From contig NC_003076.8 of assembly GCF_000001735.4 (NCBI RefSeq), positions 15,255,835 to 15,319,834 of the forward strand: a stretch of DNA of 64,000 bases, read 5' to 3'. This document shows positions 3,591 to 44,886 of the stretch, in pieces. The notes under the pieces are model-generated. The model was given only the letters and a program-made list of their open reading frames with translations. It did no database searches and was not told the DNA's origin. Within the stretch, counting starts at the first letter, position 1, and the number at the start of each line of letters is the position of its first letter. The position numbers were made by a program, and so were the translations under genes. The DNA is from Arabidopsis thaliana (taxonomy: Eukaryota > Streptophyta > Magnoliopsida > Brassicales > Brassicaceae).

Positions 3591-4588
3591 CCATAGACAT
3601 ACAATTCCGGTACGCTATTTGACTAGCTTCGACGTTAACCAACATTGACCAACAAAAATATTTAAGAAATTATTTTATTTACTTTTTAATATTAAAAAGA
3701 AAATATATTTTTTTGTTGGGTGTTGTATAATAAAAAACACATTCTATATTCAATATCAATATATTTTGTATATATATTTTTAATGCATTAGAACCTATAA
3801 TAGTTAAAAAAAATTAATTTCAAAACTAAACTAAAAGTGTAATAAAAACATTATTAAAATTTCAAAATATTAAAATTTAAATTAAAAACAAAAAATCTTA
3901 TTAGAATCAATCAATATATTCTATATACTTCACATAACTTTCGTGAAGAATGTGATTATCGAAGTCATTGTTGTTCATGTGTGTATTGCGATTCACCATG
4001 CATTACTAAAATCATGGATCCCACTTATTTTGTTTGCGGGTAGTGCCCTTAGCACCGTTGTTTTGACTTTCATAGATTGTGTCTTCAAGAAAATATAAAC
4101 TGGAAATACGCATTATTATTAAAAAATTTATTACAATTTCCTTACATAATTGATTCTAAGAAGATTATGAAATCATTAATAAAGTTATTTTTTGTATAAT
4201 ATCTTGTTTACTTTGTAAAAAAAATTATTAAAAACATTCTCGTAATAACACATAAATAACCAAAAAATTTGCAGTGTTTCCTTTTAATATAGAAAAGATA
4301 GAATCATTAGCTTTAATTTGACTTTTAATATTTTAAAATTTTAAAAATATTTTTATTTCGCTTTTAGTTTAGTTTTGAAATGAAAAAAAAAACTAACTAT
4401 TGTAAGAGTTAATGATTTAAATGTATACATATAAAATATATTTATGTTACAGAAAGAATGTATTTTTATTATACAATACCAAATAAAACTATTTTTTCTA
4501 ATATTAATATAAATAATAAAAATTTGTTGGTCAATGTCGGTCAGCGTTAGAATCAATCAATCGGTGTACCAAAATTGTATTTCTATAG
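3591..4588. mobile_element. Long-terminal-inverted-repeat DNA element (MULE or foldback type)
   Basis: The left arm, about 3591-3895, and right arm, about 4310-4588, are inverted copies of each other over nearly 300 bp with gaps. Shared blocks include CATTGACCAACAAA, TGTATAATAAAAA and TTTCAAAACTAAACTAAAAG. The middle is about 400 bp of AT-rich DNA with no transposase frame. Long arms suggest a non-autonomous Mutator-like or foldback element. I found no clean 9-bp target duplication, so the exact ends are uncertain. Confidence 0.65.
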
Positions 4589-5200
4589 TATTAACCATAT
4601 GATGTTGGATAATTTATATATATGATCATGCAATATATTTACTTTGTGTAGTTGAAAACACAATATTATACTTATATGTGTGAACATGCATTCTTATATA
4701 TTTATTTCGTCTAGCTATCAATTTTTTTCTTTAATTTTATATAATTAGCTGCAATTTTTTTTTTTAACTCCAATTTTATACTTCAATGACGTATAATATT
4801 TTATAGTTGTTGGCCTATCTTTGTATAACCTAACGTAAAATGCTATTTCAATATAACAAACCTTACAAATTACAATTACGAACCCTATTTTATCACTTTT
4901 CTTCCTAAGAAAGATTTTTCTGAACTCTGAAATAGTTTTTCTTATACGTTAACAAGATTTTCCACAGTGAATGACTTACAAATAAAACGAGAAAAGTCTT
5001 CCAAAGTCAACTAACCAAAGACGTGTCATTTAGTTCTCCAAGTCTATGAGTATCTGTCCTTCTCAATATTGACTTAGTCGTGGTTCGACCATTCCACTAG
5101 CTCTTTTCTGTCTCCACTTGGTTTTTTTTTGTTTAATCATTTATCATCTACTCTACTTTAAACACAAACCAAAAAAGAAACTACTTTCCAGATATCAATC
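4589..5200. other. Intergenic, presumed promoter of the ectodomain gene
   Basis: AT-rich DNA with no gene. TTGACT W-box cores occur near 5070, but there is no clear TATA box. It leads into the leader of the ORF that starts at 5201. Confidence 0.4.
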
Positions 5201-5989
5201 ATGTTCTCTCCAGTACTCTTCAGATTCTCAAAACCTAATTCTTTTCTGGTCCTTCTCTTCTTCTTATCCTATATTCACTTTCTTCCTTGTGCTCAAAGTC
5301 AACGAGAACCATGTGACACTCTGTTTCGTTGTGGGGATCTCACAGCCGGTTTCCCTTTCTGGGGAGTGGCTCGGCCCCAACCTTGTGGTCATCCATCTTT
5401 AGGACTTCACTGCCAAAAACAAACAAATTCGACTTCTCTAATCATCTCAAGTCTGATGTACCGTGTTCTCGAAGTAAATACCACTACTAGTACTCTTAAA
5501 TTAGTAAGGCAAGACTTTTCAGGTCCATTCTGCTCGGCTTCATTCAGCGGAGCAACGTTGACTCCTGAACTTTTTGAGCTTTTGCCAGACTACAAGACCC
5601 TCTCCGCTTACTACCTCTGCAACCCTAGTCTTCACTATCCTGCGAAATTCATATGTCCAAATAAGGGTGTTGGCTCAATACATCAGGATGATTTGTATCA
5701 CAATCACTGTGGTGGGATTTTCAACATCACTGTTCCCATAGGTTATGCTCCAGAGGAAGGAGCTTTGAATGTAACCAATTTGGAAAGTGTTCTTAAAAAA
5801 GGATTTGAGGTGAAACTTAGCATCGATGAGAGACCGTGTCAAGAATGTAAAACCAATGGTGGAATCTGCGCCTACCATGTTGCAACTCCGGTTTGCTGCA
5901 AGACAAACTCGTCATCAGAAGTCAATTGCACTCCAATGATGCCATCTGGATCTAGTGGTATGTTTCTGAACTATCAGCAAATTTCATAA
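5201..5989 (+). CDS. LRK10L-2-type receptor ectodomain without a kinase
   Basis: An uninterrupted 262-residue frame. Residues 1-32 form a hydrophobic signal peptide ending near CAQSQ. A GUB_WAK galacturonan-binding-like domain follows, opened by CDTLFRCGDLTAGFPFWG and CGHPSLGLHC. After that comes the PTI/WAK-associated Cys-rich half (FEVKLSIDERPCQEC). Five or more N-x-S/T sites fit an extracellular protein. The sequence resembles the ectodomains of the minus-strand kinases at 21.4-26.9 kb more than the next gene's. No transmembrane or kinase exon follows before the next signal peptide at 7053. A GTATGT donor at 5958 would allow splicing onward. It could be a secreted receptor-like protein, a decayed kinase gene, or a first exon of a double-ectodomain receptor such as I recall for At1g66880. 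Confidence 0.6.
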   Translation: MFSPVLFRFSKPNSFLVLLFFLSYIHFLPCAQSQREPCDTLFRCGDLTAGFPFWGVARPQPCGHPSLGLHCQKQTNSTSLIISSLMYRVLEVNTTTSTLKLVRQDFSGPFCSASFSGATLTPELFELLPDYKTLSAYYLCNPSLHYPAKFICPNKGVGSIHQDDLYHNHCGGIFNITVPIGYAPEEGALNVTNLESVLKKGFEVKLSIDERPCQECKTNGGICAYHVATPVCCKTNSSSEVNCTPMMPSGSSGMFLNYQQIS

Positions 5990-7052
5990 GCATAACATAT
6001 ACATTTCCCACTTGCCAAATTTGGGCAGTATTACCACAGTGCAACCAGGCAAAAATAGACATGTCGATCCACATCCTCTATAAGTTCTGCTATGACACAT
6101 ACCACAACTATTATCCCCTAGGTTGCAAAAATTGGTAAGCCCCAAGCATATAGAACATGCTAATCACCAAGAACCGCAGCTCATACTTTGGTGTTCTAAA
6201 TTATACAAAACAAAACCATTTTCTGCAATGTCTCTAACCAAGTCACACAGTTTTCTTTTTTTCCAGTATCTCTCGGTCAGTTTTAGCAGTGTTAAGATAT
6301 ACCTTAGTCCCTAGTGAGCTCAAGAGAGAAGGTAGAAACTTGAGTGGTCTAAAAAGTCTTTATCTGTTTCCAGCAACTAGACATACACAATTTCAATTCA
6401 AATAAGTCATTTTCAGGGTATGGAAGTCTTCCTTACCAGATTCTGTCATCTTTATCAACATCGTTCAGTTTCCGAGGTAAATACTAAAGAATCTTTTTCT
6501 TGTTCCAGTCTTCATTCTGTCCACATACCATTTGATGCCTTCACATTTATCTGAAACTGAATAAGAAAGTTGAGAGTAAAAGAAGGGCCAACAACGGTCA
6601 AGTCTTTCTTCATAGTCGATTTTTAACCCCTTTGGAGATTTTCTTCTATAGTCTAGTTTTATCTCCTTTTCTACTTTGCCTGGCTTTTCCAAGTAAAGTT
6701 CTTGTGCCGGCACTTGTTTAGGTCATCCTACAAACATAAAAGAAATTAATTATTTAATAGCAACCACTCAAAATTTTTTTTTTTTTATTGAATATCTTGA
6801 TTGTCTATTCGAAGACTAAGTCCTCCTAACCCACCTAATTCCAAAGAAATTTCCCATTGAAAATATTATCAGATAAACAACAAAGAAAAAAAGAAACCTT
6901 AATAATATTTTCTTTCTTTCAACTCATATAAAACTATGACTTAGACAAACACAATTCACCAATTCCTAATCTGTCTTTTACCTCTTATTCTTTGTCTTCA
7001 TTTTCTTGTTCATCTCCAAGAAAAAAAAAAAAAACAAACAGAGGAGATCACC
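5990..7052. other. Spacer between the ectodomain gene and the receptor kinase
   Basis: About 1 kb with no convincing exon on either strand. I looked for a transmembrane or kinase exon belonging to the upstream ectodomain and found none. The last 150 bp are CT-rich and serve as leader for the ATG at 7053. Confidence 0.5.
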
Positions 7053-9542
7053 ATGATCAATCTTTCTCTGTCTCTGACAAAATCTTGGTCCAATACAATC
7101 ATATGGATGCTCTTTGTGATCCCCTCTTGTGTTTTCTCAGTTGTTGATGAGCAACACAAACACTGCAGTCCTAGGTTTAAATGCGGAAACCAGTCAGAAC
7201 TCTATTATCCCTTTTGGATATCTGAGAGAAAAGAGTGCGGTCACCCAGATTTCGAGGTCAACTGCAGCGGAGATTTTGCAGAGCTTACTGTATCCACAGT
7301 TAAGTTCCAAATCCTTGAGATGAACTATGAGTTTGAAATCATAAGACTAGCCAGAATGGATTATCGCAACAATCTTTGTCCTCAGCATCCTGCGAATGCA
7401 TCTATCAACCATGATGTCCTTCCATTTTCTCCCGACACCAAGCTGTCAACTTTTTATCACGACTGCCAATCAACGGTAGATGTACATCCCAATGATTACA
7501 TTAAACAGCTTAACTGTGAGGATTATATCGGTGGGAAAAGTTACTTTGTCTCGTCCTCTTCACATTCTGGGGATAGAGCTACCTTAGCTGCATTGAGTGC
7601 ATCGTGCGAAGGGGTCGATATTCCAGTCTCTCGGTCAGCCTTGAAGACAGTAGAGAAAAATCAGAGTCTGGAGGCTATGAAGAAGGCTATTGATGAGGGT
7701 TTCGAACTTGGCTTCAACAATGAATGTTCCCAATGCGCAATATCAGGGGGCGCTTGTGGCTTTGATCAGAGATTGAAAGCATTTGTTTGCTATTGTGCGG
7801 ATGAGCCTCACGAGAGTACTTGCTATTCTGAAATAGTAAAGAAGAGTAATGATTCATCTTTATCTGCTTTACTGAATACTTTAGCTGACCTAAGTTAATC
7901 TGATCCTAAATTCGTCTCTGAATCTAATTGGCTAATGTCCTTCCATAAGAACCAGATCTCTTATCTTCCTCAGAAACTCTCTTGACTTTCAAACTATGTT
8001 TTATGCACCATTCTAAAATTCTGTCTTAAATTTTAACTGATATTATTCTCATGGTAGCTCATGCAGGTCTCTCCAAAAAAGGGAAAATAGGTATGTGTCC
8101 ATCCTTTTTCCTTTCAAGGAAACTAATTTCAGTAGAACATACCTACGTAACCGCATCATAATACGAACATCTTGTCTTTCCGTTTATCTCTAGGCATCGG
8201 ATTCGCTTCTGGATTCTTGGGTGCCACACTTATCGGCGGATGTTTACTCTGTATCTTCATCCGGAGAAGGAAGAAACTAGCAACACAATACACAAACAAA
8301 GGCCTATCAACAACAACACCTTACTCAAGCAATTATACAATGTCAAACACTCCAACCTCCACAACAATCTCTGGCAGCAATCACTCTCTTGTACCTTCAA
8401 TATCTAACCTTGGAAACGGAAGCGTCTACTCTGGAATTCAAGTCTTCAGCTACGAAGAACTCGAGGAAGCCACTGAAAATTTCTCCAAAGAACTCGGAGA
8501 TGGAGGCTTCGGTACTGTCTACTACGGTACACTAAAAGACGGACGAGCAGTAGCTGTGAAACGACTCTTCGAAAGATCACTAAAACGCGTGGAACAATTC
8601 AAGAACGAAATCGATATCTTGAAATCCCTAAAACACCCGAACCTAGTGATTCTATACGGATGCACAACAAGACATAGCAGAGAGTTACTCCTAGTATACG
8701 AATACATCTCCAATGGCACACTCGCTGAACATCTCCATGGAAACCAAGCACAATCTCGCCCTATTTGTTGGCCTGCTCGACTCCAAATAGCCATCGAAAC
8801 CGCTAGCGCCTTGTCCTATCTCCACGCCTCAGGTAACACATACTGAACACACACACATGACACATACACACAATGAGATTAGTTTACTAATGATGAATTC
8901 TCTGATTCAGGGATCATACACAGAGACGTTAAGACTACTAACATTCTCTTAGATAGCAATTACCAAGTCAAAGTAGCTGATTTCGGACTCTCACGGTTGT
9001 TTCCGATGGATCAAACTCACATCTCCACTGCTCCACAAGGTACTCCAGGATATGTAGATCCTGAGTATTACCAATGTTACCGATTAAACGAGAAGAGTGA
9101 CGTTTACAGCTTCGGAGTCGTACTCTCCGAACTAATCTCATCGAAAGAAGCTGTTGATATCACCAGACACCGCCACGATATTAACCTCGCCAACATGGCG
9201 ATTTCGAAAATCCAAAACGACGCCGTACATGAGCTCGCGGATCTATCACTCGGATTCGCGAGAGATCCTTCGGTGAAGAAGATGATGTCGTCGGTTGCTG
9301 AATTAGCATTCCGATGTTTGCAACAGGAGAGAGACGTACGGCCATCGATGGATGAGATCGTTGAGGTTTTGAGAGTGATTCAGAAGGATGGGATAAGTGA
9401 TTCGAAGGATGTGGTTGTGGAGATTGATGTGAACGGTGGTGATGATGTTGGATTGTTGAAGCATGGTGTTCCTCCGCCGTTATCGCCGGAGACTGATAAA
9501 ACGACGGCGAGTAGTTCGAATACTACGGCGAGTTCGTTTTGA
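7053..9542 (+). CDS. LRK10L-1.3: LRK10L-1-type receptor-like kinase
   Basis: Exons 7053-7815, 8067-8090 (a 24-nt micro-exon), 8194-8832 and 8911-9542 give about 685 residues. Order: signal peptide (about 1-30), GUB_WAK domain (CSPRFKCG, YYPFWISE), Cys-rich WAK-associated domain, micro-exon linker, transmembrane helix ([16 protein letters not shown]), Ser/Thr-rich juxtamembrane stretch, then a kinase. The kinase has the glycine loop GDGGFGTVYYG, VAVKRL, catalytic loop IIHRDVKTTN, DFGLS and GTPGYVDPEY, so it is an RD kinase with every key residue present. Only the 7815 donor (GTACTT) reaches the micro-exon in frame; the stronger GTAAAG at 7833 would lead to a stop, so this border needs transcript support. 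An AATAAA lies about 50 nt after the stop. The family acts at the plasma membrane in pathogen and ABA responses. I recall it as At5g38210. Confidence 0.88.
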
Positions 9543-9929
9543 AGAGAGTAGGAAGGAGACTCTAGTTCTGAAGGAAGGTTCGTTTTGTCAGTAAATAAAA
9601 AAAATCATTTTTCATTTTTGCCTTTTGAAATTTTTTTTTATAAATCTTGTCGTTAACCTTTTGACTTTTTTTTTTTGTCGACACCTTTTGACTTTTTTCA
9701 TCGGTTCCGATATTTTATCCTTTCTATATATTATTTTTGTATCGGAATTTTTATTTTATCCTTTTTTAAAATCATATATTACCAAATCACAGTGAACAAA
9801 TAGTGCTTAATCTTTGGAAGATGCATGCAAATTAAAATATAACAATAATGCTAATGGGAATATTGCTAATTGCTATATTAAAATGAAGAGATGTAGAATA
9901 CTATTTTTATAATACATCGTCATGGTGTA
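9543..9929. other. 3' flank of the receptor kinase
   Basis: 3' UTR with AATAAA near 9594, then AT-rich DNA with poly-T runs. No gene seen. Confidence 0.5.
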
Positions 9930-10445
9930 AGGATGGGCATAATATCTAAAACTTAGCATCCAATCCGAAAAATTCGATCTAAATCCGAATTGAAAATCTC
10001 AAAATATTCGAACGGGCTTTATACTTCCAAACCCGAATCCAATCTGAACCGATATTCGAATAGATATCCGAACATATCCATAATTAAATACATAGTAGTA
10101 ATATATTATTAATATTTATATTTGTGATAATTTAATTGTCAAAATATGCAGCTTTCCGATATTTAAAATATATTTAGTATTTAATCTACTTTTGAGTAAA
10201 AATATTTAAAGTTTTTAGATATTTTGTGTATTTTCGAGTAGTTTAGATAGATTTGATTATAAAAATTGATTTTTGGGAACTTCGGGTACTCCGAATCTAA
10301 ATCCGAAATATCTGATTCGAACCCGATCCAAATCTGAAATCTTGAAATATCCGAACGGGTTCTATACTTTTAAATTCGAAAATTCAAAAACACAAACTAT
10401 TTGATCCCAATCCAAACGGATATCCAAACGACCAGACCTAATGGT
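9930..10445. repeat. CCGAA-rich dispersed repeat with two internal direct halves
   Basis: From GGATGGGCATAATATCTAAA to about CCAGACCTAA the sequence is built from variants of ATCCGAA and ATATCCGAAC. The left part (about 9970-10080) and right part (about 10290-10400) are direct copies of each other, sharing ATCCGAA, AAATATTCGAACGGG and TATACTT. It looks like a non-coding transposon derivative. No target duplication was recognised. Confidence 0.5.
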
Positions 10446-11493: not shown

Positions 11494-13177
11494 ATGTAAA
11501 GTATACAATATGTAATTTAATCATATGATTTCTATTTTTTGTATTAATAATTATGATATAAAAAATTATAATGAAAACCATTACATGACTAGAAAATATG
11601 TTACATCTATGATTTCTATGATTATTAGTATATAAATATAGGTTAACAAAGAATATTATTATATAAATCTAGATCCACAGATTTTGAAGATGCTATTTTG
11701 TTAGTCATATTTTAATGAAAATATTAGTAATATAGTTTCTTAATTATAACACCAAAATGACATAAGCTTCAATAGTTTATTACTTTTTCTTCTTTTTTCA
11801 TTATAACTATGTTGTTTGAAATTTGTTTAAAAATAATTATGTTTAACTATTTTTATTGCTAATTTATGTTATTTTCGTATATGCTATTATGTAGTTAATA
11901 AAGTTATATTCATTTTATTAATTATATTTGTATAGTTAGATTCACTTTTGATTCAAATATCAATTATATTTTTTTCATGTATAAATCTTTTTATCTATAT
12001 ACCCAAGTTTCTAAAATTTTTTAACTATCATGAAATACTTACATCAACAATATGATACAATGGTATGCAATTATGCTACTTATTTGGTTTGAAAGTTATC
12101 TAATTTGATTCTAAGCAAATAATTTCTTGTTCCATGTATTCTCTCCTAATCTAGTATTCCAATCACATCATGATAGGCTCATGGCTAAATATTGGATTGA
12201 CATAATTTGAATAACAAATATATAAACTACTCATTTGCTTTAAAAGTTTTCATATGAAAAAAAAAAATCATAAATTAAATAGTCTTTTGAGTCAACACTT
12301 TTAGGTTTCTCTCTTTGCATTTGCATATATTCATATTAGAGAAAGGATCGTATATTGAACTTTTTGGTATATCTAACATCTCAAAAGATCACTATTTAAC
12401 AAAAGATACATGTCAATATTAATGTTACCAATTTATCATAAACATACAAAAAAACCATATCATGTAAACAAAAAAATATAATAAAAAGAAAAGACTAAGC
12501 TAAAATTACTAAACTAAAGAAGGTTAAGTAACAAACAGTTAAGTTGTAATACACGAAAATTTTTAGTCATTATCAAATAATGACTATTACAAAAATAATA
12601 AAAATAAGAAAACTAAAATGAGAGTAGTGTTTGATACATTAACATGATTTTTGTATTTTTTCTTGGCCAAATTTCATATATGATTTCTCAAATGCGAACT
12701 CAGTTGATTTTTTTTTTTTTACTCATAACTTACTTAATTTCTTATGAAAAAAAAAATATTTGACAAACAAGAAATAAAATATCAAAACTATAAGTTTTTG
12801 TTTGTTTTTTAGAAAAGAAGTGAAAGCTCCGTTTGACAACCGCCATTTAGAGAGAAGCGCGACATTTTACTTTTCGACTTTCGTGTTTCTCCAGTGGAAT
12901 TCTTTTCAATATACACGCGCCGCTTATTATCCCTCACGCGCCACCGTCGTGTAAACCATAAAAAATCTCAAATCTAAACTCTTTCATTTTCAACTTTTCC
13001 TTTTCTTCTTCTTCTTCTTTATCTTTCTCACTTCTCCTTTCTCCATCGTTCTATCATTTTCTCCTTTCCTTCACCTCAAGATCTCAAAAACACAAAAAGA
13101 GAAATCAATCAAAACCTTAGGGTTTTCTACTAATTTATCTGTGTGATGTTAAGAGAATCATCATCATCTTCGTCGTC
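11494..13177. other. AT-rich intergenic DNA and hydrolase promoter
   Basis: No gene seen. The last 350 bp turn CT-rich, as in a leader, with GGGTTTTC just before the ATG. Earlier sequence is over 75 percent A+T by eye. Confidence 0.5.
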
Positions 13178-15306
13178 ATGGGAGGAGTAACTTCATCAAT
13201 CGCTGCAAAATTCGCTTTTTTCCCGCCATCACCACCGTCTTATGGATTTGTTTCCGACGTTGACCGATTATACATAACAGAAGTACCTCGCCGTGATGAT
13301 GTAGATGTATTGAAGCTAAAGACTCGTCGTGGTAACGAGATTGTAGCTATTTATATTAAACATCCTAAAGCTAATGGTACGCTTTTGTATTCACATGGTA
13401 ACGCTGCTGATTTGGGTCAAATGTTTGAGCTTTTTATCGAACTTAGTAATCGTCTCCGACTTAATCTCATGGGGTAAGTAACTTTTTTCTTCTTCTCTAT
13501 CTCTGTTTTTGTATAAAGTTTCGATTTTTGAGGATTGTTGTGAATGATACTGTTAATTTAGGGGTTTCCATGAAAAAAGGAGGAAACTTTCCAAAATTGG
13601 TTCGTTATCTCGTTGATGTTTTTAAATTTGAATTGAAGATTTGGTTTTGGATTGGTTATTAATGGCTTATAGTCCTGAATATAGTGACAAAATCTATGTG
13701 AAAGTCAGAGACTTTAGCCAAAATTTTCTGGGTCTTGTTGACCCCTCAAGACATTTATTCATATAGTTTTTGAAATTTCTATATAAATAATTTGACTTTT
13801 GTGAAATGTTGTGATGCAAGCATTTCATTGCAACTGTTTTCAATCATACTTCTCCTCTGTGGTAGAAGAAGAATTTAGATTCTGAGAATGCGATTTCGCA
13901 TATCTTCATGCGTACTTGCTTAGGCCTTGTACTCAATTTTAACGACTGTGAAGACTGTAAATTGGTAATTAGTAGCAAAAGTTTCTCCACTTAAGTTGTG
14001 TTATTGCGGTAGTTACGGTCTATAATCCAATGATGAGTAGGTTATAATAGTTCTATAATCTCTTCTTTGGTTTTCTTTTTCCAGGTATGATTACTCTGGT
14101 TATGGTCAGTCTACTGGAAAGGTTGTATTCTGAGCTTCTAACTTTATAAAAGTGTATCTGACCGTCTTGTTATGTGTTAGAGAGTCCAGGGATTGTTTTT
14201 GATGGATTTAAGTTTGTTACTTGAATCAGGCAAGTGAATGTAATACCTATGCTGATATAGATGCAGCATATACTTGCCTCAAGGAACATTATGGTGTAAA
14301 AGATGATCAACTGATATTATATGGTCAGTCTGTTGGTAGTGGACCAACGATTGATTTAGCTTCACGCACGCCTAATTTGCGAGGAGTGGTTTTGCACAGC
14401 CCTATTCTCTCTGGGATGAGAGTTTTGTATCCGGTTAAACGTACCTATTGGTTTGACATTTACAAGGTAATTTAGCAAACATTCAGCTATGTTTGTTCTG
14501 GTTTTCATGTGTTCATGCTTACACGCACAATTCTTTGTTTCAGAATATTGACAAGATCGGTGCAGTTACCTGTCCTGTCTTAGTAATCCATGTGAGTAAA
14601 TGATTATTCCTCTTTCATTATTGTCTCTTTCACTTTGCCTTTGATCTTCTCATTATTGGTGGAATCTTGTTGTCATTTATTGCCTCCACAGATTCTTGTA
14701 ATGAATTAAAACTTGTAGGTTAACTGGACCATTTGACAAGAAAATGTTTGGTGAAACTCAAGTTGTTGAAATTTATGAGATATTTATTGGGTAGCCAACT
14801 TGAGTATTTCTCCAATAAGAATCATTGTCTTGTGCCTTAAAAACAGATTAGTGACATTAGTCTAAATTTAAATCACTTAAGAAGGTTTTTAACTCTCTTG
14901 TTTGGTCTGGTAGGGGACTGCAGATGAAGTGGTTGATTGTTCTCATGGAAAACAACTTTGGGAACTTTCAAAAGAAAAGTATGAGCCTTTATGGGTATCT
15001 GGAGGAGGACACTGCAATCTAGAACTCTATCCAGAGTTCATAAAACATCTGAAGAAATACGTAATTTCTATTTCCAAGGGACCAAGAACTGGTTCGAACA
15101 AGACTGCAACGACGGATGCAGCCAAAAAACAGAGCAAGCCTGCAGAGAACGGGCGTGCTGATACGTTTCAACTTGGCTGTTGCCTTCCAGAAGTTTCTAG
15201 AAACAGTGTAGACAGTCAGCTGGAGAAATCTAAGAAGACTAGTAAACCCGAGAAGTCTCGTATGAGCATTGATAGGTTTAGAAGGAAAAAAGGTTCAGTC
15301 TGGTGA
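13178..15306 (+). CDS. Alpha/beta hydrolase (ABHD17-like)
   Basis: Exons 13178-13473, 14085-14121, 14230-14466, 14544-14591 and 14914-15306 give about 336 residues with consistent phases. The protein opens [17 protein letters not shown], then shows [14 protein letters not shown] for the oxyanion region, the nucleophile elbow [10 protein letters not shown] (Ser), GTADEVV (Asp) and GGGHCNLE (His). A complete Ser-Asp-His triad therefore spreads over exons 3 and 5. The C-terminus has a Cys-Cys motif (LGCC) and a basic tail ending RRKKGSVW. Animal ABHD17 relatives remove palmitate from proteins; that substrate is an extrapolation here. The first intron is 611 bp and unusually long for this gene. 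I recall it as At5g38220. It sits between receptor kinases, as its relative does in the chromosome 1 duplicate. Confidence 0.9.
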
Positions 15307-21404: not shown

Positions 21405-23483
21405 TCATACTTCTGAGTAAATTGAGCTGTCCTCCTCTGATGGCTGAGATGATTCTGCATTATTATTTTGCATTGGCATATGCAAAAGAGGCTTAGGAGG
21501 GGGATCAAGAGAATCCAAATTTCCTTCCATCATCCCTACAACTTTGTTCATTGATGGACGGTCTGATGGGCGGAACTGAATACACCATAGACCCACCAAG
21601 ATCATCTTTTTCGCAATATCTTCTTCCTCTCGGGTTAGTCCATCGGCAAGAAGCTTTACGTAATCTCCATTTTCAAGATCCTTAAAGATCCAATCTGGAA
21701 AGTAAGCTGAGCTATTGTTCGAATCAGCATTTTGGACTCTTTCTTTGTTCCTTGCTCCAGTCATCTCAAGAACCAACATTCCATAGCTGTACACATCCGA
21801 CTTGTGAGATACATTCCCATACACTCTTGAAAACAACTCTGGAGCAATGTATCCTATAGTTCCTCTCGTGTCAAGCAATGACAATATGCTTTCTTGCTTC
21901 TCACAAAGCTTAGCGAGGCCAAAATCAGCAACTTTGGGTTTGAGATTTTCATCTAATAGTACATTCTGTGGTTTAATGTCAAAATGCACAATCCTTTTTT
22001 TGCAGCCAAAGTGCAAGTACTCTATTCCCCGAGCCACGCCTAGCGCGATTCCATAAAGTGTACTCACATCAAGATTCGAAGACTGATCTAGAGACCCATT
22101 CTCTAGAAATTCATACACAATCGCTCTTTTGGATTTTTCAAAGCAAAAACCAAGTAGAGAAACAATGTTAACATGAGATGTTTGGCTTATGCTTGCAACT
22201 TCGTTGATGAAATCTTCGCAATTTCCATTTGAATCCTTCAAAATCTTCACGGCTACTTTACGACCATCGCGTAAATTCCCTTTATATACAGTTCCAAATC
22301 CTCCTCGTCCAACTACTTCTGTAAATGATTTTGTAATTTTCTTGATTTGTCTATAACTATATCGTCTCGAGGTTACAAGCGCCTCGAGGTTCTGCTTTCT
22401 CAGATCATTTACTTTTTTTCTCCTCCAGAACAAGAATGCTATAATCATCACCACAATTATAAATACATGGAACCCTACAACTGAAAAATACAATAACAAT
22501 TTAGTTACATAACAAAGTTAGAAAGTTTAATACAAGTCTAAACAGTAATTCTAACCTTGTCCAATTGTTATCAGTATGGAGCGAGTGTTAGGGATTATCT
22601 CTGCAACAATTAAAGGACTGATGAAAAACATTGCAAACAACAAGATCATGGATTCTTACATTGAAAATACCAAGTTAGTATTGTTTATGATCTATTGATT
22701 ACGTGAGATTCAAGATTAGGCGAGTTTACCACGTAATAAATCTCCTGTATCACCACCGCAGGTCGTTGTACGATCATGATATTTGCAGCAAGATCCGGCA
22801 AGAAAGAGGCAATTTGCACGAGAGGAAAAACATTCTAGTGGACAAGGTATCTCATCTATATTAAGCTTCACTTCAAATCCTTTTCTAAGAACACTCTCTA
22901 AATGGGTCAAATCCAAAACTTCCTCCTCCGAAACAAAACTCGTAGGAACTGGAACACTGAAACTCCCATCACAAAGTATACCATATGTAGAGTTTTGAAT
23001 AATAGAGCCAAGACCTTTCACTGGACATGTGAAATTCCCAAGGAAATGGCGACGAGGGTCACAAGCGTAGAACACAGTGAGGCTTTTGTAAGATGGTAAA
23101 TTCTGGAAGAGACCTGAAGATAAAAGTGTGGAGGAGAATGAAGCAGAGCAGAAAGGACCTGAGAAATCTTGTCTTGAAAGTCCAAGAGTGACGGAATTGT
23201 TGTTGTTGTCTATATAGAGGACAGTGTAGTTGTGGCCTGAGAAGATAAGAGAGGTTGTGTTTGAGTGTTTGTTGCAGTTTAGTTTCAGAGAATGGTGACC
23301 GCAAACTTCACCGCGAATCCCTCCCAAGAAAGGAAAACCAGCTGTGATGTTTCCACACCGAAACGGAGTACCACAGCCCCATAAATCATCTTGGCTTAGA
23401 GCACAAGGAAGATAATAAAACAAGAATAACAAGATCAGACAGAACCTAGCTGTTTGAGATCCCATGGAGGACAAATAATCCAT
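21405..23483 (-). CDS. LRK10L-2-type receptor-like kinase, non-RD (first of three)
   Basis: Exons, in transcript order, are 23483-22730, 22600-22556 and 22480-21405, about 624 residues. I start at the ATG of [10 protein letters not shown] because the upstream in-frame codons (to 23648) lack signal-peptide character and include the TATA box. Order: signal peptide ([15 protein letters not shown]), GUB_WAK domain ([16 protein letters not shown]), Cys-rich region, a 15-residue linker exon, transmembrane helix ([14 protein letters not shown]), kinase. The kinase keeps [22 protein letters not shown] and IAPE, but its catalytic loop is VHFDIKPQN: Phe replaces Arg of HRD, so it is a non-RD kinase like many immune receptors. 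About six residues after GSLDQ are missing compared with the third kinase. The 3' UTR runs into the CACTA element. I recall At5g38240. Confidence 0.88.
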
Positions 23484-23558
23484 GACGTGTGAGAATAAGT
23501 TTTCTGTGAACAAATATTTAGAACACTTGTTTGATAAGGCTACAGAGAAATGGGAGAC

Positions 23559-23564
23559 TTTATA
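23559..23564 (-). promoter_or_regulatory. TATA box of the first minus-strand kinase
   Basis: TATAAA on the minus strand, about 76 nt upstream of the chosen ATG at 23483, within CTTATAAAGTC. It falls inside the upstream open frame, which supports the downstream start. Confidence 0.5.
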
Positions 23565-23648
23565 AGGGGGAGAGACTTTTCTTACAACAGGTGTATGGAT
23601 CTTGACCATATCTTTGTTTCTTCTGTTCACACTTTGTCTCTCAATCAT

Positions 23649-24808
23649 TATGATATTTGGAACTCCTGTTTCTTTACCTTCTTGTCGTTTCTACCATCTT
23701 TAATTAAAAATGATTTTAATTCATCCAAGAGTACATCCCTATTCATAAAGTAATTTGGTAATCCACAAACAAAAGGTTATACACATGGTGCTTGGAAAGA
23801 TCCTAATTGCATAAACATCCTCTGATCTGATTTCTCTATAGGTTAGAAATGGAACACATATACCAAAATCCACAAGTCTCTTGAAGTCAAAACGACCGAC
23901 ACACAATATCTCATTATAAGTTCTTAAGAGCAAGTAAGAAGAAGTTATTATCAAGAGTCTTTTTTTTTTGTTATTAACTAAATCACAGAAGCTTTCGAGA
24001 GAAAAAAATCGAACTAAAGGAAAATCAAAAAGGGAAGTCTAGATCTGCATGTGGCATGTGGGTACCCAAACTTTTTTAGTAATGACTTTCATTTAAGTTT
24101 CAGTTTATAAATTTTGAAAAGTAAATTTGTTTAATATTTACCCTTAGAAAATTTTTAGGCCCCCAAAATTTCAGGGCCGGCCACTTACAAGTCACAAGTA
24201 GAGCTGTAGTCGTCAGTTAAAACTTTATCCCGACCAAACCCGAATTAAGCATGCTCGTTTAAACTCGAATTTTAAATGCCAACTAGTACCAACAGTGTAA
24301 GCAGAAAAGATAAAAGAAAGGAAAAAAACTAGCAGGTTCCATCTCTGCAAACTTTTTTAGTTATCTTGTAATGACTTTAATTTTAAGTTTCAGTTTACAA
24401 ATTTGAAAAGTAAATTTGTTTAATATTTGGTTTTGTAAGAGACAAATTATTAAATTCAATCAATCATCATCTCCTTTCTACACCTAAATGCCTAATTCGC
24501 CAACGACACAAACAATCTCAGTTCAAGTTCCAATCATACCTAATTTGCCAACAACACAAACGATCTCAAGTTATAATCTTAAATCACAAACAAATATCTT
24601 GTATGAAAACAGAGATTGCCAATTCATAAGCACAACAATTTTACATTATATATTTCTTGATTTATTACGATTCCCTAGCATTTTTACATGATCTTTCTTG
24701 ATAAACGCAGTTTGAGACACACGTTACTGTTTAATATATTTTCCAATGCAAAATTGACCTATAAATGTGAAATATGATTGGTTTTACATATATTCCCAAG
24801 TCATGGAA
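23649..24808. repeat. Intergenic DNA between the first two minus-strand kinases, with a direct repeat
   Basis: No gene seen. Two direct copies of about 75 bp, at about 24069-24145 and 24352-24435, share AAGTTTCAGTTTA and AAAGTAAATTTGTTTAATAT. Between them lies a GGCCCCCAAAATTTCAGGGC-type transposon end at about 24145-24185, which matches in reverse the remnant at 3366. The duplication may have arisen around that insertion. Confidence 0.5.
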
Positions 24809-26875
24809 TCATACTTCGGAGTAAATTGAGCTTTCCACTGATAGCTGAGATGATTCTGCATTATTGTTTTGCATTGGCATATGCAAAAGAGGCTTAGGAG
24901 GGGGATCAAGAGAATCCAAACTTCCTTCCATCATCTCTACAACTTTGTTCATTGATGGACGGTCTGATGGACGGAACTGAATACACCATAGACCCACCAA
25001 GATCATCTTTTTCGCATTTTTTTCTTCCTCTCGGGTTAGTCCATCGCCAAGAAGCCTTGTGTTATCAAAATTTTCAAGATCCTTGTAGATCCAATCCGGA
25101 AAGTAAGCCGAGCTATTGTTCGGATCAGCATTTTGGACTCTTTCTTTGTTCCTTGCTCCGATCATCTCAAGAACCAACATCCCATAGCTGTACACATCTG
25201 ACTTGTGAGACACGCTTCCGTACATTCTTGAAAACAACTCTGGAGCAATGTATCCTATTGTTCCTCTGGTATCAAGCAATGATAAGATGCTTTCTTGCTT
25301 CTCACAGAGCTTAGCGAGTCCAAAATCAGCAACTTTGGGTCTGAGATTTTCATCTAACAGTACATTCTGAGGTTTAATGTCAAAATGCACAATCCTGGTT
25401 TTGCAGCCATAGTGCAGGTACTCAAGTCCCCGTGCCACGCCTAGCGCGATTCCATAAAGTGTACTCACATCAAGATTCAACGACTGATCCAGAGATCCAT
25501 TCTCTAGAAATTCATATATGATCGCCCTTTTGGATCCTTCATAGCAGAAACCAAGCAGAGTTACAATGTTAACATGAGATGTTTGGCTCATGCTTGCGAC
25601 TTCGTTGATGAAATCTTCACAGTTTCCCTTTGAATCTTTCAAGACCTTCACGGCAACCTTTCGACCATCGCGTAATCTCCCTCTATATACAGTTCCAAAT
25701 CCTCCTCGTCCAACTACTTCTGTAAATGATTTTGTAATTTTCTTGATTTGTTTATAATTGTACCCTCTCAGGGTTCCAAGCGCCTCGAGGTGCTGAATTC
25801 TCGCAGCCTTTGCTATTCTTCTCTCGTTAAGATAAAATGCTAGAAACAGCACCACACATACACATAGTATTGACCCTAGAACTAAAAAAATTGAAAACAA
25901 CCTTAGTTTCAGTCCCGCAAAAGTTCAATACAAGCTGAAGTTGAAGCAGTAACTCTAACCTGTTCCAATTGTTACCAGGAAAGGGCGATTATCGCTGTAA
26001 GTTCCTGCAAAATTTAATGTCTTTTTGAGCAAGATTGCATCCAAAAAATGATGGATTCTAACATTGAGAATGTAAAATTAGTGATGCTTATGATCTATGG
26101 ATTAGATGAAATTCAAGATCAAGTGATAACCATTATTCATAGTAGTTATTGAAGTAAGGCAACTGATTTCTGGTCCTGATACGTTCGTGCAGCAAAACCG
26201 TGTGAAGCCAGAGTTTCCATCAGTGGTTACACATTCTTGACCAGACATCTCACTTATCTTCAGCTTCACCTCTAACCCTTTCCTCAAAACACTTTCCAAA
26301 TGTGTCAAATTCAGAGCTTCTTCCTCTGGAACATAACTCGTAGGAACTGTGACGCTAAAACTTTTATCACAAAGTTTACGATACGTAGAGTTCTGAACCA
26401 CAGAGCCAAGACCTTTCACTGGACATGTGAAATTCCCAAAGAAATGGCGACGAGGGTCACACATATAGAACACAGTGAGGTTTCTGTAAGGTTGCAAATT
26501 CTGGAAGAGATCTGAACGCAAAGGTGTGGAAGAGAATGAAGCAGAACAGAAAGGACCTGAGAAATCTTGTCTGGATAGGCTAAGAATGTTGGATTTGTTG
26601 TCTATATGGAGGACACTGTAGTTGTGGCCTGAGATTGTAAGAGAGGTTGTGTTTGAGGGTTTGTTGCAGTTTAGTTTCAGAGAAAAGTGACCGCAATCAC
26701 TTTGGCGATTCTCTCCCCAGAAGGGAAAACCGACGGTGATGTCGCCACACTGAAAAGGTTTACATAACCTACTTCGTTCTTGCTGGCTTGGAACACAAGG
26801 AAGATGATAAAACAAGAATAACAAGATCAGAAAAAAACTAGCTGTTTGAAATCCCATGGATGATAAAGAATCCAT
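24809..26875 (-). CDS. LRK10L-2-type receptor-like kinase, non-RD (second of three)
   Basis: Exons, in transcript order, are 26875-26131, 26004-25960 and 25881-24809, about 620 residues. Order: signal peptide ([15 protein letters not shown]), GUB_WAK domain ([27 protein letters not shown]), Cys-rich half, 15-residue linker exon, transmembrane helix ([14 protein letters not shown]), kinase. Kinase motifs are [26 protein letters not shown] (non-RD), DFGLA and IAPE. It shares the short deletion after GSLDQ and the C-terminus SSIYSEV with the first kinase, and the two kinase exons are close at nucleotide level. They look like a recent tandem pair. Plasma-membrane receptor; ligand unknown, cell-wall pectin suggested only by the domain. 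I recall At5g38250. Confidence 0.9.
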
Positions 26876-26958
26876 GAGGTGTGTGAATACTACTGCTCTG
26901 ATTAGAAACCGAAAAAAGAGAGAGAGTGATTAAAGCTATAGAGAAAGGGGAGACTTAG

Positions 26959-27469: not shown

Positions 27470-27895
27470 GTTTTTTTTTTGTTGATATTGTCCATGTTCC
27501 TTCCTTGTACTCTAAGTAACCTGCCCATCCCTCTTCTCACATGACTCTGTTTTCGAGTGTGGAAACATCACAGCAAACTTCCGTTTCTGGGAGCAGATCG
27601 TGGTTATCCTTGTGGTCATCCATATCTGAAGCTTAGCTGTGACAGAGTTTCAAACAAAACCTCTTTAACATTCCCCAACGTCTCATATGATGTTCACCAA
27701 ATAGACAATAAACTCAACACTCTTTACACTTGTCAGGCAAAATTCTTCTTCAATAATATTTTGTTGCACGATTACATAAGCCACAAGGTATATGATGGAG
27801 TCTGTGAACCTATAAATACCTAAGATGTTTACAGATATGGAGTGTCCAAATAAGTTTTCAACTTGTGGATCCTATAAATACCTCAGTGTAGATTG
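27470..27895 (+). pseudogene. LRK10L ectodomain relic, opposite to its neighbours
   Basis: Fragments of an LRK10L-2 ectodomain lie on the plus strand between two minus-strand kinases. They include a signal-peptide-like run (LSMFLPCTLS), SVFECGNITANF, GADRGYPCGHPYLKL, NKTSLTFPN and VHQIDNKLN. The frame shifts inside the domain, and the Cys-rich half and kinase are absent. The motif CCTATAAATACCT occurs twice (about 27807 and 27873). The end of the relic overlaps, antisense, the last codons of the third kinase. Confidence 0.65.
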
Positions 27896-30003
27896 AATTC
27901 TCTTCTGAGAAAGAAGACAGTTGCGGAAGAGGCTCTGCAGAATAATGTATAGAAGGCTTAGGAGGGACTTCAAGAACATCCAAACTTCCTTCCATCATCT
28001 CAACAATTCTGTTCATCGGTGGACGATTTAATGGAGATGGTTGTATACACCAGAGACCCACCAAGGTCATCTTCTTTGCAACCTCTTTATCCTCTCTACT
28101 TATCTCATCACCAAATTTCCATGTATCCTCTCCATTTTCAAGATTTTTATAGATCCAATCTGGAAAATAAGCTGAACTAGAGTTAGAAGCAGCAGTTTCC
28201 TCTATTTCTTTGTTCTTTGCTCCGATCATCTCGAGGACTAACATTCCATAGCTGTAAACATCTGACTTGTGAGAGACTCTTCCATACATTCCTGAAAACA
28301 CCTCAGGTGCAATGTAACCTATTGTTCCTCTTGCGTCTAGCAAGGACAAAATGCTTTCTCTTTTTTCGCAGAGCTTAGCAAGGCCAAAGTCTGAGACTTT
28401 AGGGCAGAATGTGTCATCTAATAGTATATTCTGAGGTTTGATGTCGAAATGAACAATCCTTGTTTTGCAGCCATGGTGCAAGTAATCAAGTCCCCGGGCA
28501 ACACCTAGAGCGATTCTGTATAGCGTACTTACATCTAGATTCAGTGACTTCTTTTCAGAGAGGAATTGATCCAGCGACCCATTCTCTAGAAACTCATACA
28601 CAATAGCTCTTTTGGACCCTTCATAGCAAAAACCAAGCAAAGAAACAATGTTAACATGAGATGTTTGGCTCATGCTTGCGACTTCATTGATGAAGTCTTC
28701 ACCATTACTCTTAAAATCTTTCAATATTTTCACTGCAACCTTACGACCATCGCAAAGGTTTCCCCCATAGACAGTTCCAAATCCTCCTTTCCCAAGCGTG
28801 TGAGAAAATAATTTTGTAATTTTCCTCACTTCGGCATAACTGTACTGTTTCAGTTGTACTAGCCCCTTTAGGTTATTGTCTCTTGGTCTTAGATGATGTG
28901 AAGTTCGTCTCTTTTGGAAAAAGAAACAGAGCAAACATACGGTAATAAGAGTGGCACCCAAAAATCCACAGCCAAGTCCAATGCCTAGAAACAAACAATA
29001 AGACAAGACCTTCATAAGTTTATGCTGTTAATAATTAGGTCTGTTCCACAAAGATTATTTTCATTGAATCTTGGAAGGAAAAGGATTAAACATATACCTA
29101 TTTTTGCTTTTTTGGAGACCCCTGCATGAATAAATACCATGAGAAACATTTCAGTTCAAACGCAAGACAGAACTTAGAAGCGTACTTAAAAAAAACACTT
29201 GAAACTCACAAACCTATACCCATCTTTCCACATGTATGCTCGTGAGGCTCATCTTTACAATAACAGACGAATGCTTTTGAGCTCTGATTAAAGCCACAAG
29301 CACCTTTTGATGCTACGCATAGGGAACAATCACTGTTAAAGCCAAGTTCGAAACCCACATCAAGAACCTTCTTTATAGCCTCGAGACTCTGATTTGTCGC
29401 TGTTGTCTCCATGGCAGATCGAGAAACAGGGATATCGACGTTTCTTTCACACGATGCACTTAACCCATCTAAGATAGCTCTATTCCCAGGATGTGAAGGG
29501 GACGAGACAAAGTAACTTTTCCCACCAACTTCTTCATCACACCCAAGCTGTCTGATGTAACCATTGGCAAGTTCGTCTACCGTTGGACCAGAGCAGTTGT
29601 AATAAAAGGTTCCTAGCTCGGTGTCTTGAAGAAATGGAAGGACTTCTTGGTTGATTGATCTGTTCTCTGGATGCCAAGGACAAAGATTGTTGAGATACTC
29701 TGTTCTTACAAGTCTTATTATACGAGACTCATAGTTCATCTCGAGGACGTGGAACTTAACCGTGGATATAGTAAACTCTGCGAAATCTCCGCTGCAGTTG
29801 ACCTTGAAAACCGGGTGACCGCACTCTTCTCGGTCAGGTGACCAAAAGGGATAATAGAGATCTGTCTGCTTGCCACATCTAAACGTAGGAGAGCAGTGTT
29901 TCTGTCGCTCATCAACTGACAACACACAAGAGGGAATCACAAAGAGCATCCATATGATTGTATAGGACAAAGAATTTGTCTGATATAGAGAAAGATTGAT
30001 CAT
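27858..30003 (-). CDS. Chimeric LRK10L receptor-like kinase, non-RD (third of three)
   Basis: Exons, in transcript order, are 30003-29220, 29121-29098 (24 nt) and 28984-27858, about 644 residues. The ectodomain ([36 protein letters not shown]) is clearly closest to the plus-strand gene at 7053 ([28 protein letters not shown]). The 24-nt micro-exon and transmembrane helix ([17 protein letters not shown]) are shared with that gene too. The kinase, however, is the LRK10L-2 type of the two neighbouring minus-strand genes: [26 protein letters not shown] (non-RD), DFGLA, IAPE, with no intron, whereas the 7053 gene is RD and has an intron before its catalytic loop. So the two halves have different parents. 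It keeps FLSEKK after GSLDQ. The C-terminus extends six residues past SIYTEV. I recall At5g38260. Confidence 0.9.
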
Positions 30004-30654
30004 TGTGCTCTCCTCTGATTTTCTGGAAACTAATAACTATGAAGGATAGATAAGAGGAGCACATGATCATCTTTTACTAACTCAACTAAGACGAATTGTT
30101 TGTCCAGTTCACGATGATAGTTGAACTATTTTAACTAATAAAAAAAGCAAAGGCAAAAAGACTTTTTCTTCACTGGAAATGAGAGTTATTAGACAAATTA
30201 ATAATCTCACAACAGAAACTTCCGCACAAACTTCGTAACACTTCCCATATCATAAAGACTTGGTCATATCTTGAGACTTGAATGAAATTAAACTATATGT
30301 TGGAACAAAATTAAACCTAACACCCAAAATATCTATTTCATAGTATCATCTAGTTAATATTTAATCTAGTTATATAGTTTGAGTTAGCGGGTTTTTAAGA
30401 CCTCTCAATAGAGTTTCTCACAGTTAAAAAAAGTAAAAATAATAAAAAGGAAAGAGAGAGTGTAGAAAATTTCTGAAACTCTTAGATACTCTCTACATCC
30501 CATCATGACATTTTTCTCTTTTATATTGGTTCAATTTTTTCATTAAAATAAATTTTTTTATCGTATAATCAAATTATAATTAAATTTTATTTTTTTTTGT
30601 TTGTTTGAGAAACTCTTTTGATTTTTCCTTGATAGAGATGTCACTAGGCATCAA
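30004..30654. other. Intergenic, promoter side of the chimeric kinase
   Basis: AT-rich DNA with no gene and no clear TATA box for the kinase at 30003. Confidence 0.4.
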
Positions 30655-42133: not shown

Positions 42134-44824
42134 TTTTTTTTTTTTTTTTTTTTGGCTCAACAACAACTTTATATTATCCAACGTTCGATTACACGGATTC
42201 TAAAACCACAATGTGTTTGATCCAGTCTGGCATAACAGAATACAAAATGAGATCATAATTCACTAAAGAAAGAGATTCCCTTGCAATTCTATCGGCCACT
42301 CTGTTTCCTTCACGCCATATGAATTGAAACCTGACTTCATCAAAGTGATGGAGGAGATTCCTAATGTCTTGGATCCTTGAAGCTAGGCTTGGATGGTCTA
42401 TATTATTCTTGATCAAAGACACTAAGAACTGAGAATCCGACTCAAAGATCACTCTTTTATAATTGAATCTGGACAATGAAAGGATTGCCCATCTCAGGGC
42501 TTCAAGCTCAGTTTCCAGCATCGACTGCACTCTTGGTAAGGCCCTTAGCCCCATCCACAACACCTCTCCAAACTGGTTTCTCAGCACCCATCCAACGCCA
42601 CAGTTCGGAGCTACATCAACCCAGGCACCATCTGTGTTGCATTTCACCCAACCGTAGCTTGGGGGTTGCCATCTCCTGCATTGCATGCCTGGCGGTTGAG
42701 GGAGAACTTTTTGTGGCTGCGGTTCCTTGCGGTTATTCCATTCCTCCAAATCTTCTGTAGCCTTAAGGATCACCTGTTTGGCTGAGAATTCTATTCCTTT
42801 GAACACTAGATCATTCCTGTTTTTCCACAATCTCCAAAGAATCTAGGGTACCATCTCATGAGAGTCAGCCTTGTGAGGCTGAGACTGATTGCACATGAGG
42901 ACATGAGACATGTTTGAATATAGAGAGTCAACCCATTCACCCCCTGGAGGAGCTGGGAAGGGAGAGATTGCCCAAATAAGCCGGGCAAAGGTACATTTAA
43001 AAAGCAAATGATTAACTGTCTCTCCTAGGAATGGGCATCTAACGCAGCCCTTATCTCTAGCCAGGTGTCTGTGGGCAAGGTTTCCAGCAACAGAAAGACA
43101 GTTACTCAAACATTTCCACAGAAAATGATGAATTTTAGGTGGAACCTCTAACCGCCAAATCTGTTGGAAAATTGGTTCCAAGCTTGGTTGAAGGACTTCT
43201 TGAGGTGCACTCCTTTTATTGATAATCTCAGCCATGACCCAATAACCTGATTTCACCGAGTAGTGACCGGAGCGACTAAAGTCCCAAGCGTACCTGTCCT
43301 TTGTATCCTTACCCCCTGGCCGGAGACCCAAGATTTTCCTCTGATCCTCCTCTGTAAACAGCATTTTCACTAGAGTGTTATTCCATCCTCGTCCATCCAA
43401 CGACATTACGTCTTTAACACAGTTAATAGCACTAGCCGCTTGTTGACTGTCCAGAGGAATTCTTTTCATCATTTGGATAGCCTTTGCCGGTTTAGAATCG
43501 ATCCAAGGATCCGTCCAGATATTCACAGAGACTCCATCTTCAACCACTGCCCTTGCACCTTGTCTAATAAGCACTTGTGCTTCATGAAAACTTTTCCAGG
43601 CAAAGGATGGTCGCGAACCTAAGGGAGCATTAAGAGGATCAGATTTACTAAAATACCTACTTTTGAACCCCTTCGCCATTAAAGAATCTTTTTCAGTAAG
43701 CATCCTCCAAAGCTGCTTCCCCAAAAGAGCTATGTTGAAGGCTTCGATCTCTTTAAATCCCAGCCCTCCCACAGCTTTAGGCCTGCTGAGATGGCTCCAA
43801 GCTTTCCAATGCATGCCTCTACCGTTCCGCTTGTTCTTCCACCAAAACTCTGCCATAACTGACTCTATTTGTTGACACACTGTTTTTAGGATTTTAAAGC
43901 ACGACATAGTATAGGTGGGGAGGGCCATTGCCACAACTTTAAGGAGTGTCTCTTTCCCACGGGGGAAAGGAATCTTGACTGTCATCCCAATACCTTCTTG
44001 CTCAGGCGTTCCTTTAAATAGCTTAAAATAGATACTTTTGACCCCTGAAACGATTCAGGCAAGGCCAAATACACTCCCTCTCCTCCCTCTTTCTTAATTC
44101 CCAGCTTTTCTTTCACAAGAGCTCTCCTTTCCTCCGGGATGTGCTTTCCAAAATAAACACTCGATTTAAGGTAATTAACACGTTGGCCTGAGGCTAAGTT
44201 ATACTCCTCAATGATCCTTATAATCTGACCAAGCTCTTCATTGTTTTCCTTACAGTAAAACATACTGTCATCTGCAAAGAGGAGATGAGAGATAGGAGGA
44301 GCCCCCCTTGCAACTTTGAGGCCAGTTATGAGCTGCTTTTGCTCTGCCACCTGGAGCATCTTTACCAACATCTCTGTACAGATTACAAAGAGATAAGGAG
44401 ATAGGGGATCACCTTGCCTTAGTCCCCGAGTTGGGGTAATCTCTCCATGGGGAGTACCATTTATCAGCACTTGGTATCTAACCGATTTGACACATTCCAT
44501 GATCAGCTGAATCCAACTCTCTGCAAATCCCAGCCTCCTCATTGCATTCTCTAGAAAGGGCCATTCAACTCTATCATAAGCTTTAGAGATGTTAGTTTTG
44601 ATTGCAATGAATTCCTCAGAGCACTTATTATTGGAGCTTAAGGCATGGAGCAACTCATGAGCTATCAGGATATTATCACTAATTAGTCTGCCTTTAACAA
44701 AAGCTGCCTGAGATTCAGAAATTAAAGATGGGAGAATCTGCTTTAATCTGTTTGCTAACAACTTCCCAATAATCTTGTAAATAACATTACAGGGACTTAT
44801 AGGCCTAAAGTCAGTCATTCTTTC
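42134..44824 (-). mobile_element. 5'-truncated L1-type LINE
   Basis: A minus-strand LINE of 2.7 kb, with its poly-A tail seen as poly-T at 42134-42153. It is flanked by an 18-bp duplication AGACAGGCTCTGAATTTT at 42116-42133 and 44825-44842. In element order: the reverse transcriptase from its second third (44818-43982: MTDFRPISPCN, GLRQGDPLSPYLF, LLFADDSM), the zf-RVT region (43985-42843: WTDPWI, CVRCPF, LLFKC), and RNase H (42830-42189) with its D-E-D-D residues (NTDGAWV, ETELEAL, FESDSQ, NRVADRIA). ORF1, the endonuclease and the start of RT are missing. A frameshift lies near 43983 and an in-frame TAG at 42843-42845. Motif A reads KTNISKAYD, where relatives have KTDMSKAYD. The exact duplication suggests a fairly recent insertion. 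Confidence 0.9.
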
Positions 44825-44886
44825 AGACAGGCTCTGAATTTTATGGGACTAAAAACATTTTCAAATTTTATGGTCAATAATTTATA

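Follow-up and report, generated by a model that had tools for sequence, protein, structure and literature searches.

How does a receptor kinase come to join the extracellular part of one neighbour to a kinase of another subfamily? The question is raised by a gene on the minus strand of Arabidopsis thaliana chromosome 5 (27858-30003 of the 64,000-nucleotide stretch analyzed here, chr5 15255835-15319834, hereafter the window), which we take to be At5g38260 and label 38260. The other gene numbers used below (38210, 38240, 38250, 39020, 39030, 66880-67000, and 18390) are likewise presumed, as are the subfamily names LRK10L-1 and LRK10L-2, which we apply to RD and non-RD genes, respectively. The two types of receptor kinase, RD and non-RD, probably differ in how they signal, and the non-RD type has been linked to immunity. 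The gene was analyzed by searches of the genome (119.7 Mb, 7 contigs), and all comparisons were made within this one A. thaliana genome.

The 38260 gene encodes an intact non-RD receptor kinase

The gene model, built from the DNA sequence alone, predicts an open 646 amino acid protein with GT/AG splice sites. Exon 1 (29214-30003) has a signal-peptide-like start and the Pfam domains GUB_WAK_bind (4.6e-13; 49.8 bits, cut-off 29.4) and WAK_assoc (1.1e-23; 84.4 bits, cut-off 27), that is, a WAK/LRK10L-like ectodomain, which falls in the class that we call B. It is followed by a 92-nt intron 1 (29122-29213), a micro-exon of 24 nt (29098-29121), intron 2 (28985-29097), and exon 3 (27858-28984), which encodes the transmembrane (TM) helix, a juxtamembrane segment, the kinase (Pfam, 5.4e-47), and the stop, all on the minus strand. 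The catalytic residues VAVK, IVHFDIK, SDFGL, and IAPE are intact, which, with the open frame and the splice sites, rules out decay of the gene. The kinase has HFD, not HRD, and is thus non-RD and not of the RD type of LRK10L-1.

A total of 27 kinase matches were found at E 1e-50 or better, 13 of which were taken as LRK10L-2-type kinases; left out were two fragments (chr1 25009173-25009550 and 13432379-13432786) and 12 distant kinases at 35-45% identity, and the kinase fragments in genomic stretches L014 and L015 were also excluded from the counts. IVHFDIK is present in all 13, and 38260 lies inside their clade, which is separate from four RD kinases of LRK10L-1 (branch support 100/100).

Upstream of 38260, a dispersed repeat of ~210 bp (window 30400-30620) matches at least 42 stretches genome-wide, counting the query itself. 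One copy also sits upstream of 66880, and the 80% upstream match of these two genes is this repeat, which discards a common promoter. At E 1e-5, a plus-strand search matched the upstream flank of 38260 to none of those of 38210, 38250, 39020, and 39030. A short remnant of a class-A ectodomain (27545-27820, plus strand) sits between 38250 and 38260, opposite in strand to both, and its sole other genomic DNA match found is in 38240. Farther along the window we noted, by eye, LINE-type reverse transcriptase-like open frames with RNase H (42189-44848, minus strand) and a pair of similar small cysteine-rich ORFs (59009-59392 and 62243-62611, plus strand).

The extracellular part of 38260 matches an RD receptor on the opposite strand

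In the genome-wide search, the ectodomain nearest to that of 38260 was that of 38210, with 69% identity; the next full-length matches reached 50% and 49%, and a fragment on chr3 61%. The 38210 gene (7053-9542, plus strand), which holds the genome's closest match to the ectodomain-to-TM region of 38260, lies some 18-20 kb away and encodes an RD kinase (IIHRDVK). Its exon 1 (7053-7845, with the donor site as chosen) is 82% identical in DNA to that of 38260 and is followed by an intron 1 of 221 nt by the model used, a micro-exon (8067-8090; 83% identity to that of 38260), and a TM exon starting at 8193. A string of 12 residues and the motif GFLGATLI are common to both proteins. The likeness extends to noncoding DNA: alignment z scores against shuffles were 8.2 for intron 1 and 10.8 for intron 2, next to 8.1 for the micro-exon and 12.8 for the initial 72 nt of the exon with the TM helix, and fell to 0.0 over the next 120 nt. 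Because the introns are shared, convergence of the two ectodomains is excluded. The match of ectodomain, micro-exon, and TM helix to the 7053 gene, and the joining of this RD-receptor part to a non-RD kinase, had both been pointed out in a first-pass annotation and are borne out here.

The result is a bounded tract of high similarity, ~1.1 kb long, inside genes that are otherwise diverged. Its 3' edge is sharp and falls, by eye, at 28905-28925 (minus strand), after the TM helix, between FFFQKRR and TS; from RTSHH on, the juxtamembrane segment of 38260 resembles that of the non-RD genes (by eye). The joint thus lies between TM helix and kinase as had been proposed, within a narrower interval than the 30-40 codons then allowed. 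The 5' edge of clear similarity (30003-30020, minus strand) is given by the start of the blastn tract at 30020 and 7036, ~17 nt before the ATG. The blastn end makes this edge look sharper than it is, since the 150 nt upstream of both genes, taken as a whole, give a z of 4.4 in a gapped alignment, and a weaker similarity may run farther upstream of 30020.

Ectodomain and kinase trees are in conflict

Trees were built from 17 kinases (13 non-RD and 4 RD) and from 20 ectodomain rows. The ectodomain of 38260 groups with that of 38210 (96/100; 98/98 with the chr3 fragment added), and holding it with 66930 and 67000 instead was rejected (p-AU 1.5e-4), as was a constraint uniting all four class-B ectodomains of non-RD genes (p-AU 4e-109). 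In the kinase tree, 38260 is placed in the non-RD clade and its grouping with 38210 was rejected (p-AU 2e-69), in agreement with the conflict expected from the first-pass annotation. Trees restricted to the first two codon positions gave the same picture for these groupings. Site patterns point the same way: in the quartet 38260/38210/66930/66880, 82 ectodomain sites favor 38260 with 38210 (12 and 9 for the alternatives), while 254 kinase sites favor 38260 with 66930 (7 and 9). This flip from 82:12 to 7:254 was as extreme in none of 2000 shuffles, and the pattern flips in six class-B quartets (two of which are the same four genes), again with 0/2000 shuffles as extreme in each. The 38260 gene is therefore a mosaic of a 38210-like ectodomain-to-TM region and a non-RD LRK10L-2-type kinase.

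Within the non-RD clade, the 38260 kinase is sister to those of 39020 and 39030 (100/99; 70-71% identity), two malectin receptors located 335 kb from 38260 (stretch L019:909-3356 and 4016-6484; chr5 15.617-15.622 Mb), which we take to be MDS3 and MDS4. The ectodomains of these two are 64-68% identical to those of their neighbours in stretches L028 and L029 (presumably MDS1 and MDS2), and their kinases only 32-41% identical to the kinases of those neighbours. The group of 38260, 39020, and 39030 then joins 38240 and 38250 (95/90).

The exchanged tract is younger than the kinase lineage and the segment duplication

The first-pass annotation derived the 38260 kinase, in the same event, from the non-RD genes 38240 (21405-23690) and 38250 (24809-26929), both on the minus strand and presumably At5g38240 and At5g38250. 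In favor of such a one-event assembly, all the genes concerned are neighbours, and the kinases of the two are 69% and 68% identical to that of 38260 and share a chr5 clade with it. However, relative ages, calculated as Ks (Nei-Gojobori with Jukes-Cantor correction, bootstrap intervals), do not agree with it: Ks is 0.35 [0.24-0.46] between the ectodomains of 38260 and 38210, and more than twice that between the kinases of 38260 and 38250 (0.88 [0.68-1.19]) or 38240 (0.83 [0.63-1.12]), with intervals that do not overlap. An exclusive kinase grouping of 38260 with 38240 and 38250 was also rejected (p-AU 0.0028), its sisters being 39020 and 39030; this sister relation rests on the trees, since the kinase Ks to 39020 (0.84 [0.64-1.15]) is not below that to 38240, and that to 39030 is 0.71 [0.55-0.95]. 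Assembly in one event from these neighbours is thus very unlikely, and the data are better explained by replacement of the ectodomain of a non-RD receptor that already existed. As for other details, a 19-residue kinase string of 38260 that had been given as shared has a differing counterpart in each of the two neighbours, and their description as intron-less holds for the kinase exons and for those exons only.

The chr1 cluster that holds 66880-67000 lies within a duplicated segment in which a flanking gene, the RD receptor, and a hydrolase-like gene are colinear with chr5 (tblastx). The flanking gene, with two ORFs (743-1674, plus strand), corresponds to chr1 24942376-24943364 (Ks 1.56 and 0.88), and the gene at 13121-15306 (plus strand), presumably hydrolase-like, to chr1 24959605-24961222 (Ks 0.70 and 1.16). 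Over these two gene pairs (four exons) Ks ranges from 0.70 to 1.56, and between the kinases of the RD pair 38210/66880 it is 1.12 [0.81-1.59]. Since the ectodomain Ks of 0.35 is below all of these and below the kinase Ks values, the common ectodomain is younger than both the segment duplication and the kinase lineage. If 7e-9 changes occur per site per year, the exchange would date to some 25 million years ago, with wide error, and would be expected in A. lyrata and perhaps also in Capsella.

Ectodomain classes are reshuffled among related kinases

With the nearest ORF upstream of each kinase taken as its ectodomain, the 13 non-RD kinases had four class-B, three class-A, two malectin, three thaumatin, and one GDPD ectodomain; the kinase at chr1 26.45 Mb is one with a thaumatin upstream ORF. 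Class B is therefore neither general among LRK10L-2-type genes nor rare, and the mosaic is not unique, given also a pair on chr1, 66910 and 66880, that looks similar. Class B comprises 38260, 38210, the last module of 66880, 66910, 66930, 67000, and the chr3 fragments; class A comprises 38240, 38250, 66920, 66940, modules 1-3 of 66880, and an ORF upstream of the 7053 gene (5162-5986, plus strand; Pfam GUB_WAK_bind and WAK_assoc, class A by the tree). In the RD gene 66880 (L009:1734-6698), the kinase is preceded by four consecutive modules in the order A, A, A, B, and in 66930 and 67000, too, class-A modules lie ahead of class B, two of the four class-B non-RD genes having a class-A ORF farther upstream. 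The chr3 fragments, near 9.10-9.12 Mb (L022:2177-2464 and L023), contain stops, and no kinase match was found beside them in the two stretches examined.

Three chr1 class-B genes (66910, 66930, and 67000) are non-RD as well, and the combination of class B with a non-RD kinase may thus predate the segment duplication. Under such an old fusion, later conversion would have homogenized the ectodomains of 38260 and 38210, a view to which the uneven Ks along this pair (0.18 to 0.58), which may reflect more than one event, also lends itself. However, the closest kinase relatives of 38260 (38240, 38250, 39020, and 39030) carry class-A or malectin ectodomains, and the TM exon is unlike those of 66930 and 67000 (z of -0.2 and 0.8). 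We regard a homogenized old fusion as unlikely, and replacement of the ectodomain in a non-RD receptor remains the preferred reading.

Direction and process of the exchange

A sister pair by itself has no direction, and the RD receptor 38210 could have received its ectodomain from 38260. The TM exon offers a clue. Against the RD gene 66880 it scores z 4.5 in 38260 and 6.1 in 38210, and against the mosaic 66910 5.1 and 6.2; values to the RD gene 18390 are intermediate (2.8 and 2.5), and neither exon resembles those of the non-RD genes 66930, 67000, 66920, 38250, and 38240 (z -1.2 to 1.9), in a test that left out 39020, 39030, 66980, and the thaumatin genes. A TM exon nearer to 66880 than to five non-RD genes favors transfer from RD to non-RD, and class B or B-like modules precede RD kinases in 38210, in 66880, and, distantly, in 18390. 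Both points speak against the reverse transfer, which we consider highly improbable; one short exon, together with parsimony, suggests that the tract moved from the RD to the non-RD gene.

In each of the two clusters, donor and recipient are encoded on opposite strands; simple unequal crossing-over between tandem copies was therefore discarded, and the likely process is ectopic gene conversion, with a short inverted copy as the alternative. The course of events would then start, after the segment duplication, with an intact non-RD LRK10L-2-type receptor kinase. Once its kinase had split from its nearest chr5 relatives, and after the chr1 and chr5 clusters had been duplicated, the ~1.1 kb tract with ectodomain, micro-exon, and TM helix would have been overwritten by a copy from 38210. 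The wall-facing domain, perhaps pectin-binding to judge solely by its family name, would probably have retained the input of the RD receptor, which the non-RD kinase would relay to a defence route. Taken as a whole, replacement of the ectodomain tract of the non-RD gene 38260 by that of 38210, probably through ectopic gene conversion, is in our judgement the likely explanation of this locus. Ka/Ks is 0.59 for the ectodomain pair 38260/38210 and 0.19 for each of the kinase pairs 38260/39030 and 38260/38250; the ectodomains are less constrained, and the ligand of 38260 may already differ.

A probable parallel exchange on chr1

The non-RD gene 66910 (minus strand) and the RD gene 66880 (plus strand) share a 1.1 kb blastn match (79.5%) that starts before the ectodomain ORF and stops shortly after the micro-exon, short of the TM exon; intron 1 and the micro-exon are common to both, and an extra 106-nt upstream match lies, in 66880, at the end of module A3. 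The ectodomain Ks is 0.31 [0.23-0.41]. Support for this ectodomain pair is 82/88 (87/92 with the first two codon positions). The two are not paired in the best tree of eight rows, where holding them together cost 0.05 log units and was not rejected (p-AU 0.398); nor was holding 66910 with 66930 and 67000 (p-AU 0.067). By these alignments and trees, 66910/66880 is probably a parallel exchange, a weaker case than that of 38260.

In the kinases of 66910 and 66920 (L010:5137-6354 and 8913-9998), Ks is 0.00-0.11 in 6 of 10 windows and reaches 0.93 and 0.68 in those at the two ends. Near-identity in the middle with divergence at both ends is a mark of conversion, which thus occurs in this family, and the kinase core of these two genes is likely a conversion tract.

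Exchange thus seems to be a habit of the chr1 and chr5 clusters. More tentatively, the RD receptor in each half of the duplicated segment (38210; 66880) could be a reservoir from which modules were copied repeatedly onto non-RD kinases (38260; 66910; possibly 66920, 66930, and 67000), while other kinases of that non-RD lineage are joined to malectin, thaumatin, and GDPD ectodomains. If this somewhat doubtful reading were true, input and output would be separate, interchangeable parts in evolution, and modules would pass mostly from RD to non-RD genes. Related ectodomains on both kinase types would allow one to ask whether one ligand class can feed two signalling routes, and chr1 offers a probable second pair for that question. 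A classification of receptors that looks solely at the kinase, or solely at the ectodomain, misplaces mosaics such as 38260.

Comparison with known receptor exchanges

The GDPD gene, whose kinase lies in the chr1 sister clade, is presumably SNC4. Defence is reported to be activated by snc4-1D, a gain-of-function mutation that alters the SNC4 kinase (PMC4261838); by this kinship, and by it only, 38260 may be an immune receptor. Its mosaic nature was not found described among the matches listed in the literature searched, with subscription journals and the founding receptor-kinase surveys mostly outside that search. The processes themselves are already in print: ectodomain conversion in a receptor array (PMC3136440) and kinase exchange between receptor types (PMC6368629).

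In the first of these, on the tandem array of OAK and At5g59670 in A. thaliana, an identical 2.7 kb tract spans the extracellular part, beginning 13 bp before the start and reaching 60 bp into the kinase sequence, and its authors considered gene conversion most likely (Smith et al., 2011; PMC3136440). The 38260 tract likewise covers the ectodomain, from ~17 nt upstream to just past the TM helix. The OAK tract joins closely related genes of one array and is recent and found in one accession (PMC3136440), whereas that of 38260 links an RD gene with a non-RD gene on the other strand and is old (Ks 0.35). In the CRK (DUF26) family, ectodomain and kinase trees are in conflict and kinases were exchanged between receptor types (PMC6368629); 38260 is similar in its tree conflict and differs in ectodomain and subfamilies, and it is a single gene with donor and edges mapped.

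Closer to 38260, MDS3 and MDS4 (At5g39020/At5g39030) join an LRK10L-2-type kinase, the nearest to that of 38260 in our trees, to the ectodomain of another subfamily, which is malectin-like, unlike that of 38260. Two reports list LRK10L-2 with malectin-like domains (PMC5002434) and describe a small ORF beside the MDS genes that resembles the kinase region of MDS3, MDS4, At5g38260, and At1g66 genes (PMC6093868). At1g66910/At1g66880 resemble 38260/38210 in that a non-RD gene and a nearby RD gene have ectodomain DNA, intron 1, and micro-exon in common, and differ in that the tract ends before the TM exon and the kinase core was probably converted recently with 66920; the At1g66910 group is listed as shell in one study (PMC12382012). 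Set beside these systems, 38260 is one more well-bounded exchange, here crossing the line between RD and non-RD kinases, with a probable parallel on chr1.
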